Shown: piece after piece, positions 8,290 through 24,997 of the stretch
How the letters are laid out: every line of letters begins with the position of its first letter
How positions within the stretch are numbered: the first letter of the stretch is position 1
From: Paenibacillaceae bacterium
GTDB taxonomy: Bacteria > Bacillota > Bacilli > Paenibacillales > Paenibacillaceae
Assembly (NCBI GenBank): GCA_004134985.1
Contig: REGQ01000064.1
Span: 1-64,000 of the forward strand
Direction: 5' to 3'
Length of the DNA: 64,000 nucleotides
Made by a program: the position numbers and the translations under genes
The notes under the pieces: generated by a model
Seen by the model: only the letters and a program-made list of their open reading frames with translations
Told to the model about the DNA's origin: nothing
The model's database searches: none

Positions 8290-9846
8290 TTACCTCTCCC
8301 CCTGAGCACTTGTATAGTAATCCATATTGACAACATTCGAACTATGATTGTCCTGCTCCGGGAACATCGCCTCTGCGACCCGAATCGACTTCAGCATCGC
8401 CTTCGCTTTATTCACGGTTTCCGTATATTCATTCTCCGGCACAGAATCCCAGACAATTCCGGCTCCCGCTTGCACATACGCCTTGCCTTCCTTGAAAATA
8501 ATCGTCCTTATTGTAATGCACGTATCCATGCTTCCCCCGAAGCCAAGGTAGCCAATCGCACCTGCGTACGCGCCACGCGCCTCATTTTCCAGTTCCGCAA
8601 TAATTTCCATAGCCCGCAGCTTGGGCGCGCCTGATACGGTACCTGCAGGAAGGCAGGAGATGAAGGCATCGAAAAAGTCTTTATCTTCTCGGAGTTTGCC
8701 AGATACATTGGAAACGATGTGCATAACATGCGAGTAGCGTTCCACTTCCATATAAGTGTCGCAATGCACCGAACCGAAGGTCGATACACGGCCAATATCA
8801 TTGCGTCCCAAATCGACAAGCATCAAATGCTCCGCACGCTCTTTCTCATCGGCCAGCAGCTCTCTTTCGAGCTCTGCATCGGCTTCCGGCGTCGCTCCTC
8901 TGGGACGGGTACCCGCAATCGGCCTTGTTTCCACACGATCGCCGTTTACTTTCACCAGTGCTTCCGGGGAAGTGCCTACGATCACCTCATCCCCCATCTT
9001 GAGAAAATACATATAGGGCGATGGGTTCATCGTGCGCAGCACCCGATACACATCAAGCGGATCTACAACGGTTTCAATGCTGAATCGCTGAGACAGCACG
9101 ACCTGAAAAATATCTCCGGCGCGAATGTATTCTTTCGCTTTATCGACATTCGCAAGAAACTGCGGCTTGGTTACATTCGACATGATCTCGCCCAGTTCCA
9201 AATCCCCTGGCACGATTCCGCCGGCCAGTGCCGGTGCAATAGGCTGTTCTAGCTTCCGTAGCGTCGCTGTTATTTTGGCAACCGCCTTATCGTAGGCTTC
9301 CTTAATATCCTGATCTGTCGCCTGCTCTGGGATGTGTACATTGCCGATTACCTGAATCTGCTGTTTGAAATGATCGAATACAATCACTTGATCGCAGAAC
9401 ATAAATTTCAAATCACTCATATTTAAATCGTCGACACGATGCGACGGCAAATTCTCATAATACTGCAGCAAATCATAACCAAAAAATCCGATTGCTCCGC
9501 CAGTAAACGGAGGCAAGCCTGGCAAGGACGGGCTCCGATAAGAACGTAGCTGCGACTTTAGCAATTCAATCGGCTTATCGTTTAATTCCCGGATTTCACC
9601 TTGCTGTTCAATGGTAATCTTGCCGTGTTTGCCAGAAACCATCATGAAGGGATCTGCCCCTATAAATGAATAGCGCGCCCAGTTGACGCCACCCTCCACA
9701 CTTTCAAGCAAAAATGCATTCGCTTCCCGGTAAAAATGCCGGAACAACCGAATCGGTGTCTCTGTATCTGCAAGGCAAGTGCGCACCACCGGAATCAAAT
9801 TATACTGTCCGGCCAATCGAATGACCTGATGCAATTCATCTGACAT
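8290..9846 (-). CDS. trpE: Anthranilate synthase component I
   Basis: This subunit converts chorismate and ammonia to anthranilate, the committed step. The predicted protein has 518 residues. FLLESVEGG (near residues 40-48) matches the LLES element that forms the tryptophan feedback site. PIAGTRPRG, LMLVDLGRNDIGRV and LPAGTVSGAPKLRAMEII are the chorismate-binding core. Two ATGs lie close together (9852 and 9846). 9846 is chosen because AAGGG is nine bases away, while for 9852 it is only three. A TTG at 9906 is unlikely because it abuts the attenuator. Expression is probably controlled by the TRAP-type leader upstream. Confidence 0.96.
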   Translation of the reverse strand: MSDELHQVIRLAGQYNLIPVVRTCLADTETPIRLFRHFYREANAFLLESVEGGVNWARYSFIGADPFMMVSGKHGKITIEQQGEIRELNDKPIELLKSQLRSYRSPSLPGLPPFTGGAIGFFGYDLLQYYENLPSHRVDDLNMSDLKFMFCDQVIVFDHFKQQIQVIGNVHIPEQATDQDIKEAYDKAVAKITATLRKLEQPIAPALAGGIVPGDLELGEIMSNVTKPQFLANVDKAKEYIRAGDIFQVVLSQRFSIETVVDPLDVYRVLRTMNPSPYMYFLKMGDEVIVGTSPEALVKVNGDRVETRPIAGTRPRGATPEADAELERELLADEKERAEHLMLVDLGRNDIGRVSTFGSVHCDTYMEVERYSHVMHIVSNVSGKLREDKDFFDAFISCLPAGTVSGAPKLRAMEIIAELENEARGAYAGAIGYLGFGGSMDTCITIRTIIFKEGKAYVQAGAGIVWDSVPENEYTETVNKAKAMLKSIRVAEAMFPEQDNHSSNVVNMDYYTSAQGER

Positions 9847-9907
9847 AAGCATAATCCCTTCTTTCCTGTTAAATTGCTGCCGCAGCAGACTGACGGTTTC
9901 TTTCAAA

Positions 9908-9937
9908 ATAAAAAAAGCTCCTGCTTAGCAGGAGCCT
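9908..9937 (-). terminator. trp leader terminator (attenuator)
   Basis: On the minus strand GCTCCTGC-TAA-GCAGGAGC is followed by a run of T, a strong intrinsic terminator about 60 bases before the trpE start and after the TRAP triplets. Its 5' arm contains CCTGCT, complementary to the AGCAG units repeated in the triplet region, which would allow an alternative antiterminator pairing. That pairing is inference. Confidence 0.9.
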
Positions 9938-10062
9938 TGTAGATTAGAGCATTATCGAAATGAAAATGGCAAAATGAAACACACACCAATCTGCAGTCAA
10001 CCGAAGTATGTCCGTTTAAAGACATCTCAATAAGGTTAATGCAAATTCGGAATGCGCTGACA

Positions 10063-10114
10063 CTTGCTCACACTCTGCTCATCTCTTCTCGACTCTGCTC
10101 ACTCTGCTCTGCTA
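10063..10114 (-). promoter_or_regulatory. TRAP-binding site, eleven NAG triplets
   Basis: On the transcript strand one UAG, nine GAG and one AAG triplet lie in a row at 10114-10112, 10109-107, 104-102, 100-98, 95-93, 90-88, 85-83, 80-78, 75-73, 69-67 and 65-63. Most spacers are 2 nt; one is 3 and two are 1. Eleven (G/U)AG triplets are what an 11-subunit TRAP ring binds in B. subtilis trp leaders. The final AAG and the 1-nt spacers depart from the ideal. mtrB, encoding TRAP, is at 20417-20638. Confidence 0.92.
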
Positions 10115-10115
10115 T

Positions 10116-10137
10116 GATCAGCCGCTAACCGGCGATC
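10116..10137 (-). promoter_or_regulatory. 5' stem-loop of the trp leader
   Basis: GATCGCCGGTTAGCGGCTGATC at this place can fold with outer GATC/GATC and inner GCCG/CGGC pairs. It lies between the predicted transcript start and the first triplet. B. subtilis trp leaders have a 5' stem-loop in this position that helps TRAP binding. The equivalence is inferred from position and shape. Confidence 0.75.
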
Positions 10138-10147
10138 TTCTCTTCCA

Positions 10148-10177
10148 AATATACACCAGCTGCCAACGATTCGTCAA
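10148..10177 (-). promoter_or_regulatory. Predicted sigma-A promoter of the trp operon
   Basis: On the minus strand TTGACG (10177-10172) and TATATT (10153-10148) are 18 bp apart. Transcription would start near 10141, just before the 5' stem-loop. The promoter lies in the aroH-trpE gap, so trp genes can be read from here as well as from upstream aro transcription. Confidence 0.75.
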
Positions 10178-10240: not shown

Positions 10241-10612
10241 CTAGGATTTAGCGCTTAAATCCGGACGCAATGTCTGGGCGCCCCCCAAGTAAACATGCTT
10301 TATCTCATCTTGCCGCTTATCGGTATTAACAAGCACCATCAACCGGATACACTTCTCCAAACTTCCCTTGATTGGCACCTCGAGCGCGCACATAAGCGGC
10401 ACAAGCTCCCAACCGGGCAATTGGCGAATGGCTACCGCAGGAAAAACATCGTCAAGATCCCCGGTTACCGTAACAAACACACTGGCAATATCCTCCGGCT
10501 TAATTTCGTTGTCTTGAACGATATTTTGCAAAAGCTGGACAGTTGCCTTCAAAATCGCTTCTTTCTCGTTGACATCGACCGTAATCGCTCCCCGAACTCC
10601 GCGGACACTCAT
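10241..10612 (-). CDS. aroH: Chorismate mutase, AroH type
   Basis: The 123-residue protein is a monofunctional trimeric chorismate mutase that turns chorismate into prephenate. RGVRGAITVDVNE has the N-terminal active-site Arg (residue 7 in the B. subtilis enzyme), and CALEVPIKGSLEKCIRLMVLVNT near 77-99 carries the conserved Glu and Arg. It lies 2 bp after aroB and before the trp promoter, as in B. subtilis, placing the prephenate branch beside the anthranilate branch. Confidence 0.96.
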   Translation of the reverse strand: MSVRGVRGAITVDVNEKEAILKATVQLLQNIVQDNEIKPEDIASVFVTVTGDLDDVFPAVAIRQLPGWELVPLMCALEVPIKGSLEKCIRLMVLVNTDKRQDEIKHVYLGGAQTLRPDLSAKS

Positions 10613-19698: not shown

Positions 19699-20247
19699 TC
19701 ACAATCTGAAACGCGTTGTCCAGCGCTTGGAAAAGCTGATGCCGCCGTCTTCCAGCTGACGCTTTTCGATCGTCCCCCCGGTTTGCACAGCTGCCATCAA
19801 TCGCTGCAGCCCTTCATCTGTTCTGTGCAAATCAGCGATGACCAGATGCTGCTCCCGGCTACTTTCGCTGGCCGTGCCCAGGCTGGCCCCCTCCAGAAAA
19901 CGCACTGTAAGCTGATCCACGTTGCTCACGCGCACAAAAGCCAACTCCAGGAGTTGGAGAATGTCTGAGATTATCGCATCAGCGTTCGCGTCTTCGCGGA
20001 CCATGAAATCCAGTTTCAACAGCCCCTGATCCCAGCCCGCTCTTCTTAGCTGCTGCTGAAACGGGGACTGAACAAGCAGATCGACCAGATTATCATTGGA
20101 TACTTTGGCGATTTTTTGCGGTGTAATTACAGCCGTTGTGCTATCCGGCTCTTGCAGAGCCGGCGTGTCCCGCAGCAGCAGTGTCAAACACAACATAATT
20201 GCCAGCGTCACCCCGAACGCACCCGCGATCGCCCTCCATTGCCGCAT
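19699..20247 (-). CDS. Membrane-anchored protein of unknown function (182 residues)
   Basis: One N-terminal hydrophobic segment (IAGAFGVTLAIMLCLTLLL, residues 6-24) is followed by an outward-facing domain of about 150 residues without a motif I recognise. The ATG at 20247 is chosen because GGAGGG lies just before it; an ATG seven codons upstream overlaps that site. It stands between hepS and mtrB, apart from both, and is followed by a repeat-bearing gap. A role at the cell surface or in sporulation is possible but not shown. Confidence 0.75.
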   Translation of the reverse strand: MRQWRAIAGAFGVTLAIMLCLTLLLRDTPALQEPDSTTAVITPQKIAKVSNDNLVDLLVQSPFQQQLRRAGWDQGLLKLDFMVREDANADAIISDILQLLELAFVRVSNVDQLTVRFLEGASLGTASESSREQHLVIADLHRTDEGLQRLMAAVQTGGTIEKRQLEDGGISFSKRWTTRFRL

Positions 20248-20352
20248 AAAAACCGCCCTCCGTCCCATTAACTACGGGCCGCCTTACCTATCATTCAACC
20301 CATATTCAAGTATATGAGGCAACCTGCGGACAAAGTACTGCTGGTGACGGCA

Positions 20353-20416: not shown

Positions 20417-20638
20417 TTAATTCTCTGTCTCCACTGTGCCATATTTCGTTAGAACAGTCGCTCTTCCACGTATTTTAATAGCGGAAGTATGGTCCGTAAA
20501 CTGAGCAATCAGAACTTCTCCACGATCTAGCTTCTCCATATGGTGAAACTTGGTGTCTTGGCCACGAGTCAGGCCGATCACCTGGACGCCCTGTTCTTTA
20601 GCCTTTACTACGATATAATCGCTGTTTCCGGGTTCCAT
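20417..20638 (-). CDS. mtrB: trp RNA-binding attenuation protein (TRAP)
   Basis: The 73-residue protein closely matches B. subtilis TRAP along its length. [19 protein letters not shown] contains the tryptophan pocket residues, and [15 protein letters not shown] carries the Lys and Arg that contact GAG triplets. TRAP forms an 11-subunit ring that binds trp leader RNA when loaded with tryptophan. Its likely target, with eleven triplets, is in this window at 10063-10114. In B. subtilis it follows folE (mtrA); here no folE is present and a tRNA gene lies upstream. No anti-TRAP gene is visible. Confidence 0.97.
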
Positions 20639-24042: not shown

Positions 24043-24396
24043 TTACCAAAGCTTGCCGTCATCCTCCTGCTGCTCGGCAAGTTTGCGACGCACTGCCGCC
24101 TGCAGCGGAGTTTCGGGCACTTCAACGACCACCTCGCCGATCACTCTGGCCTGACAGGACAGTCTGATGCCTGTTTGCTCCAAGCCGCCGAGCTTTAGAA
24201 TTTCTGGCCCAGTAGGCTCAGACAGACCGCTATCGGCACGATGAACGACTTTGCACATCATACAGGCGGCTTTGCCCTGGCAGCGCGTAGCGATGACAAC
24301 GCCCGCCCTTCGAGAAGCATCCAATACAGAAATGCCAGCACGCACGACAACAGACTTACCTGATGGCAGGAAGGTAATTTTGATACCGTTCATCAC
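24043..24396 (-). CDS. 2Fe-2S ferredoxin
   Basis: The 117-residue protein is a plant/adrenodoxin-type ferredoxin. Cluster ligands are visible in RCQGKAACMMCKV (C-x5-C-x2-C) and LSCQARV farther on. It is expected to carry single electrons to an unknown partner in the cytoplasm. Start is at either of two adjacent ATGs. It overlaps the nucleotidyltransferase-like gene by 4 bp, and a second ferredoxin lies just beyond that gene. The C-terminal ending is rich in charged residues. Confidence 0.88.
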   Translation of the reverse strand: MMNGIKITFLPSGKSVVVRAGISVLDASRRAGVVIATRCQGKAACMMCKVVHRADSGLSEPTGPEILKLGGLEQTGIRLSCQARVIGEVVVEVPETPLQAAVRRKLAEQQEDDGKLW

Positions 24397-24986
24397 GACT
24401 CCCCATCCTTGCAGGACAGCACAGACTGCAGACGGCTGACGAAAGAGGCGGAGAAGCGGTTGCGGGCAATCAGCATTTCAAAAGCCGGCAAAGCTGCTTT
24501 GGGCTCAGCGGCAATTGCCGCTGCGATCAGCTTCAGGCGATCCTCGCGTTCGCGCAGCATGTTGAATACCAGCTCATGAGCGAGCGGCACGACACGGTAA
24601 TCTCCAACGCCTGGTGCAGGCTTCAAACCAAGCGGCCACAGCACATCCCGCACTTCCGTCCGGTAAAGCTCTTCTCCGGCGCTCACTTCGAACCCGCTTA
24701 CCAATTCAACATCCATATTTTCGATACGGTAATGGCTGAGCAGCGAGCGGTACATTCCAGTCGAACTGTACGCGGGCTCATCTACTGCATAGGCGGCTAA
24801 TGCCCGGTGCACAATGGCAGCCTCCTGTTCATCTACATACAGGTCTAGATCGCGCGGCGGCGCCGGCAATTGAATTCCCTGCAGCAGCAGGCCGCCGCTG
24901 CCGCCTACAACCCAGGGAACTGACGGATTGCCAATCGCATGCGAGATGCGGGACAGCACCTCAATTAATCGTTCCACGCTATTCAT
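24393..24986 (-). CDS. Nucleotidyltransferase-like protein of unknown role
   Basis: The 197-residue protein has VVGGSGGLLLQG followed by PPRDLDLYVDE, which fits the G-[GS] and D-x-D start of a polymerase-beta-like nucleotidyltransferase fold. A third acidic strand may be MDVELVSGFE. Substrate is unknown. The ATG at 24986 is chosen because AAGG is nine bases away; an earlier ATG abuts it. It is sandwiched between two 2Fe-2S ferredoxin genes with a 4-bp overlap on one side and 3-bp gap on the other, so all three are probably expressed together. Confidence 0.72.
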   Translation of the reverse strand: MNSVERLIEVLSRISHAIGNPSVPWVVGGSGGLLLQGIQLPAPPRDLDLYVDEQEAAIVHRALAAYAVDEPAYSSTGMYRSLLSHYRIENMDVELVSGFEVSAGEELYRTEVRDVLWPLGLKPAPGVGDYRVVPLAHELVFNMLREREDRLKLIAAAIAAEPKAALPAFEMLIARNRFSASFVSRLQSVLSCKDGES

Positions 24987-24997
24987 CTGACACATCC

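Follow-up and report, generated by a model that had tools for sequence, protein, structure and literature searches.

Elements of the trp leader

The window analysed here, 64,000 nt spanning positions 1–64,000 of contig REGQ01000064.1 (assembly GCA_004134985.1, Paenibacillaceae bacterium), contains the genes aroB–aroH–trpEDCFBA in that order, with mtrB, the gene for TRAP, upstream. As here, mtrB and trp share one supraoperon in B. subtilis, where the aromatic genes have the same order, aroB–aroH–trpEDCFBA with mtrB upstream. The aroH gene ends at 10241, upstream of the trp leader, and the promoter, triplet array and terminator are all oriented towards trpE:

10148..10177, minus strand: sigma-A type promoter of the trp operon, TTGACG-18-TATATT (promoter scan and position)
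10116..10137, minus strand: 5′ stem-loop of the leader (MFE and centroid structures)
10063..10114, minus strand: TRAP-type triplet array, TAG, nine GAG and AAG (sequence and chain scoring)
10057..10059, minus strand: possible twelfth triplet, CAG, 3 nt past the AAG (best chain of 12)
9979..10057, minus strand: stable central hairpin separating the array from its downstream complement (folds with and without array masking)
9926..9976, minus strand: downstream strand of the predicted antiterminator, made up of the array complement (9976–9941) and the terminator 5′ arm, paired with the first triplets (folding)
9905..9938, minus strand: intrinsic terminator, 11-pair stem 9938–9914, 3-nt loop and T-rich tail (terminator scan and folding)
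8290..9846 (ORF 8290–9906), minus strand: trpE, first gene of the operon that we read as attenuated (TIGR00564, 589 bits, above cut-off)
20417..20638, minus strand: mtrB (TRAP) (NF009724, 137.4 bits against a cut-off of 117; PF02081, 136.3 bits; PDB matches)

An earlier note on this DNA had described a promoter, a 5′ stem-loop, NAG triplets and an intrinsic terminator in the B. subtilis order, and all of these are present on the minus strand. Its eleven triplets at mostly 2-nt spacing are likewise there: TAG starts at 10114, GAG at 10109, 10104, 10100, 10095, 10090, 10085, 10080, 10075 and 10069, and AAG at 10065, with spacers of 2, 2, 1, 2, 2, 2, 2, 2, 3 and 1 nt that keep a near-5-nt register. 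The final AAG and the two 1-nt spacers, found as claimed, are expected to make poor TRAP contacts. The note had also singled out mtrB, 10 kb from trp; the gene is confirmed above the family cut-off, and the distance is nothing special, being the ordinary layout of the aromatic supraoperon.

Promoter calling found two promoter-like sites in the leader against 0.9 expected from shuffles, so that the call leans more on position than on the scan; a comparable promoter-then-array order is visible by eye in many of 22 relatives' leaders. One terminator-like site was found against 0.4 expected from shuffles, and its tail has seven T ahead of the first A. The trpE start most likely lies at 9846, behind AAGGG at 9860–9856, judging from the sequence. 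Among named species, Paenibacillus abyssi has the nearest TrpE (81%, L178), in a comparison from which records of the window's own genome were possibly excluded.

Taking a TRAP-type array to consist of about 9–12 NAG triplets, mainly GAG or UAG, at 2–3-nt spacing in a trp leader, we find ten strong triplets together with AAG and CAG, with two 1-nt spacers. The chain score is 9.4. Shuffling the bases of these 100 nt 20,000 times gave at most 7.4, and the maxima were 4.7 in 18,086 other 150-nt windows of the 64 kb stretch and 4.8 in 50,000 windows drawn at random from relatives.

Predicted folds and the attenuation model

When the transcript is ended ahead of the terminator 3′ arm, 8 of the 10 nt of the 5′ arm are predicted to pair with the array (MFE −81.6, 37 °C) and 41 of the 52 array nucleotides pair downstream, a pairing that is identical for three 5′ ends and two temperatures. 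When the 3′ arm is included, the 5′ arm switches into the terminator in the fold of the full transcript. The earlier note's proposal hinged on a competing antiterminator; such a fold is predicted, and it disappears once the triplets are masked (−48.8), with the terminator staying in place. By prediction, then, an antiterminator that overlaps the array and the terminator are mutually exclusive. The leader is also more stable than its dinucleotide shuffles (z = −5.33), none of 200 being as good.

We conclude that TRAP very probably controls the trpEDCFBA operon through this leader by transcription attenuation. Computed for this reading were the sequence elements, the two exclusive predicted folds, the conservation of the array and the TRAP gene, from which we infer TRAP binding, tryptophan dependence and termination at the trp leader. 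At low tryptophan, TRAP would be inactive, and the triplet array would pair with the pre-terminator stretch and the terminator 5′ arm, so that polymerase would read into trpE. At high tryptophan, the TRAP ring would wrap the array and free the 5′ arm, whereupon the strong terminator would form and transcription would halt.

The elements resemble those of the trpEDCFBA leader of B. subtilis, regulated by an 11-subunit TRAP, as presented in the available excerpts of its description (PMC3913778): a promoter, a 5′ stem-loop, a (G/U)AG array mostly at 2-nt spacing, and an exclusive antiterminator and terminator. Unlike in the B. subtilis leader of those excerpts, the terminator here lies about 125 nt past the array with a stable hairpin between, the antiterminator is predicted to take up most of the array, the terminator 5′ arm pairing with the first triplets, and we find an uninterrupted T run, no predicted refolding at the Shine–Dalgarno (SD) sequence and no match to anti-TRAP.

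The SD difference bears on whether TRAP, besides attenuating transcription, masks the trpE ribosome-binding site by refolding, as is established for B. subtilis according to the part of the account available (PMC11255114). The predicted trpE SD is unpaired at 0.53 with the array free and at 0.51 with it masked; because masking leaves the predicted accessibility unchanged, B. subtilis-type SD hiding is unsupported here and we consider it distinctly unlikely.

A different reading dispenses with the protein, so that the terminator answers to a leader peptide, to a T-box or to some other riboswitch, and the GAG repeats are a coincidence. A 40-codon open frame does start with an ATG at 10025 and run through the terminator, as a leader peptide might; it contains zero tryptophan codons. 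No T-box or other Rfam leader family gave a covariance-model match in the leader at its gathering score, and the array, beyond every control window, recurs in 121 of 125 relatives. We regard protein-independent attenuation as highly improbable.

Conservation of the array in Paenibacillales

To the leader of the window we compared trpE upstream regions from 125 Paenibacillales genomes, comprising 106 of 108 family genomes in which TrpE was matched (the partial matches in G061 and G085 were left out) and 19 others of the order. Thirteen named-species loci were also read, some from the same species as among the 125. Relative to the maximum of 4.8 in a null of 5,000 equal-length windows from other loci, an array stands above the null before trpE in 121 of the 125 genomes and in 13 of 13 named loci; the regions not above it are those of G008 (4.5), G111 (4.1), G034 (4.0) and G047 (4.8). 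All six members of the genus (G001–G006) score above it, at 7.1–12.0. A terminator was called in 134 of 138 rows (failing in G027, G073, G121 and G140), the low-scoring calls in G036, G047 and G055 being doubtful.

The make-up of the arrays is far from uniform. Across the 121 terminator-bearing genome rows the best chain holds 4–17 strong triplets, with at least nine in 76 and at least eleven in 51. Within the genus, the array of G004 consists of eleven clean triplets, and the P. abyssi leader (G003, L032/L178) has its triplets in two groups about 45 nt apart, the insert being one that could form a hairpin. The array is thus conserved and the number and spacing of its triplets are not. The earlier note's expectation that eleven triplets would be conserved in relatives held for the array, kept in the 121 genomes, and failed for count and spacing, which vary even within the genus. 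Split or irregular arrays in several close relatives count against the attenuator reading. Together, the comparisons point to TRAP attenuation as the rule in Paenibacillales, with putative arrays looser than that of B. subtilis; such loose arrays offer a natural series for asking how many contacts a TRAP ring needs.

The trp arrays of other relatives are also gapped. Leaders L111, L113, L123 and L089, from genera g12 and g10, have only about six clean triplets, and ahead of these they share a similar stretch around CCGGAGGG...CTTACGC, which may be a larger structured 5′ element.

The terminator arms carry a further signal. CTC, CCC or TTC occurs in the 5′ arm of 118 of 121 leaders and in the 3′ arm of two, against 33 5′ arms and 29 3′ arms among 109 comparison terminators called by the same routine (score ≥15), and the duplex with the array is stronger for the 5′ arm than for the 3′ arm in 107 of 121 leaders; these arm counts are not independent, because the genomes are related. 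Downstream pairing of the array has z < −2 in 65 of 134 leaders, among which the leader of this window stands out at z = −5.5. Two stronger proposals were rejected: covariation of arm and array by lineage, since the arms of other lineages pair about as well with a given array, and a family-wide zipper of the full array as an established feature, since array pairing is barely higher (0.55) than in shuffled-middle controls (0.51).

These arms also help to weigh the view that TRAP promotes termination directly at the polymerase and that the antiterminator fold is secondary, as McAdams and Gollnick argue for B. subtilis in the excerpted text (PMC3913778), where TRAP still terminates with the attenuator deleted. 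Much of the family-wide array pairing could indeed come from composition. Direct termination would, however, not need the anti-triplet bias of the 5′ arm present in 118 of 121 leaders, and the terminator here looks strong, with an 11-pair stem and seven T before the first A; the B. subtilis terminator, by contrast, has an interrupted U-stretch in the same excerpts. We judge direct termination unlikely as the main mechanism at this leader and retain attenuation by exclusive folds.

TRAP was found in 57 of 58 genomes. The exception, G044, has an aroB–aroH–trpD–trpC–trpF stretch without an array (best chain 2.0); this single TRAP-less trp operon is a weak control, because trpE is absent and aroH and trpD are separated by only about 96 nt. 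Conversely, G046 and G029 (loci L385 and L386) have TRAP, lack trpE between aroH and trpD, and keep an array before trpD (10.2 and 12.1). The idea that genomes lacking a trp operon keep TRAP, raised by G046 and G054, which have no TrpE match, was rejected, as trpB is present in both; the only gene missing between aroH and trpD in G046 is trpE.

TRAP, ring size and anti-TRAP

All 15 PDB sequences matched by the MtrB of this window are TRAP. A residue check in B. subtilis numbering, with an assumed offset, finds K37, K56, R58, T25 and T30 retained, so the gene encodes a TRAP with intact RNA- and tryptophan-binding residues; T25 and T30 are those we take to be tryptophan-binding. K37, K56 and R58 are among the RNA-binding residues given in the available part of a study of B. 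halodurans TRAP (PMC3184956). A 189-aa ORF directly downstream of mtrB (19699–20268, minus strand) has no NCBIfam or Pfam match.

This TRAP has Lys15, Glu71 and Thr72. In the excerpts of the same study, the 12-subunit ring of B. halodurans TRAP is tied to its C-terminus with Lys15 and Thr72, a Paenibacillus sp. TRAP is reported to have both residues, and the B. halodurans trp leader has 19 NAG triplets (PMC3184956). The present system shares with that one redundant NAG triplets and Lys15 and Thr72 in TRAP; unlike the 19 triplets and 12-subunit ring described there, it has 12 NAG in its best chain and a ring size predicted from residues alone. Eleven is not necessarily the functional triplet number, given Lys15 and Thr72, and because these residues occur together with a best leader chain of twelve NAG, including the CAG at 10059, a 12-mer would be a better guess for this TRAP than an 11-mer. 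Among 14 recovered TRAPs (the window and 13 of 30 loci, a false row, L001, having been dropped), Lys15 is present in nine and Thr72 in eight, so ring size may vary in Paenibacillales.

The earlier note saw no anti-TRAP gene in the window, and this absence extends to the whole assembly, which has no match to PF15777 at E 0.001; one of 58 genomes was matched.

A second candidate TRAP target

As a probable TRAP attenuator, the trp leader is itself ordinary. Scanning this genome for five KAG in 5-nt register, with one mismatch allowed, returned, apart from the trp leader, a pair of methyltransferase genes, one low-complexity repeat and three sites with weak scores; the repeat (G000:C4:35611) and the weak sites (C26, C46 and C54, scores 3.3–4.0) were rejected as TRAP targets. 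The gene beside pabB (L259:2999, G000:C32, about 64498, outside the window), which we take to be pabA-like, shows no NAG array by eye, unlike trpG of B. subtilis. Across 58 genomes, exact six-triplet matches fall in trp leaders, in simple repeats and over the start of the gene for a conserved protein, roughly 235 aa long, represented in this genome by one of the two methyltransferase genes:

G000:C2:102687–103434 (L261:1688–2435), outside the window: methyltransferase-like gene, eleven NAG (eight of them GAG) over AAGGAG and the start codon

The name is given for a Pfam match to Methyltransf_11 in one of two members scanned (25.2 bits against a cut-off of 21.2; none in the other). All NCBIfam matches fall well short of cut-off, YcgJ (E 0.0028) is the one solved protein matched in the PDB, and the neighbours of the gene give no functional clue.

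The gene was matched in 39 of the 58 genomes. A NAG array over the ribosome-binding site or start scores above all random windows in 33 of these 39 Paenibacillales matches, this genome's included, so that an array overlapping the SD is conserved with the gene; the nulls reach 4.8 in 50,000 random windows and 4.7 at 601 ORF starts (window and named loci). The six homologues without an array above the null are those of G001 (3.8) and of G004, G030, G028, G002 and G053 (1.0–2.3), G028 and G053 being partial matches. The arrays have persisted through considerable protein divergence, 25 aligned homologues being only 32–60% identical to the copy in this genome.

Class-wide, the gene occurs in 49 of 348 genomes and TRAP in 240 of 348. 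Of the 49 gene-bearing genomes, 48 were examined (all but G398, a partial match), with windows of 150 or 201 nt, and many of them are Paenibacillaceae also in the 39-genome count. The array score exceeds 4.8 in 35 of 44 TRAP-bearing genomes against one of four TRAP-less genomes (Fisher p = 0.043, uncorrected for kinship and with only four TRAP-less genomes). The array among the TRAP-less genomes belongs to G298, whose assembly (91% complete, 400 contigs) may have failed to capture TRAP; the three without are G148, G349 (broken gene) and G393. Nine TRAP-bearing genomes have no array: G098 (4.3) and G288, G173, G030, G307, G249, G269, G239 and G176 (1.0–2.2). The apparent link between array and TRAP is strong in Paenibacillales and looser elsewhere.

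In the available part of its description, the B. subtilis TRAP regulon is small, consisting of trp, trpG, trpP and ycbK, and the sites at the last three lie in the translation initiation region, as does the array at the methyltransferase-like gene (PMC11255114). Translational repression is the natural inference, because the overlap of array and SD matches these sites, and TRAP probably represses translation of the methyltransferase-like gene. That the gene is a new, conserved TRAP target is a well-supported computational prediction. Among the matches listed in the open-licence PMC literature (subscription papers lying outside its scope), nothing concerned TRAP control of a methyltransferase or a Paenibacillus trp leader.

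Combining both sites, we somewhat favour a two-tier arrangement in Paenibacillales and some other Bacilli, in which TRAP attenuates trp and, when tryptophan is plentiful, would also repress translation of a conserved SAM-methyltransferase-like protein that would then be made in tryptophan shortage, with a ring of 12 subunits at least in the organism studied here. If this is true, the methyltransferase arrays would add to the small TRAP regulon a gene without a known tie to tryptophan synthesis or transport, and TRAP control would be the first functional clue for the methyltransferase-like family.

The other methyltransferase gene is a different one (L239, G000:C52, about 190275–190340, minus strand, outside the window), with a chain of 13 NAG triplets over its start that scores 10.3. 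It was matched in none of 57 other genomes at E 1e-40, and its chain represents a further TRAP site or, alternatively, a degenerate NAGTT repeat.

Other features of the window

Two further features were recorded in the window. A 200-aa protein (24393–24995, minus strand) has a match to Pfam Aminoglyc_resit, a nucleotidyltransferase family, slightly under its cut-off. Downstream of a tyrA-like gene, positions 1057–1340 hold a tandem array of a 40-nt unit in 7.1 copies with 91% matches.
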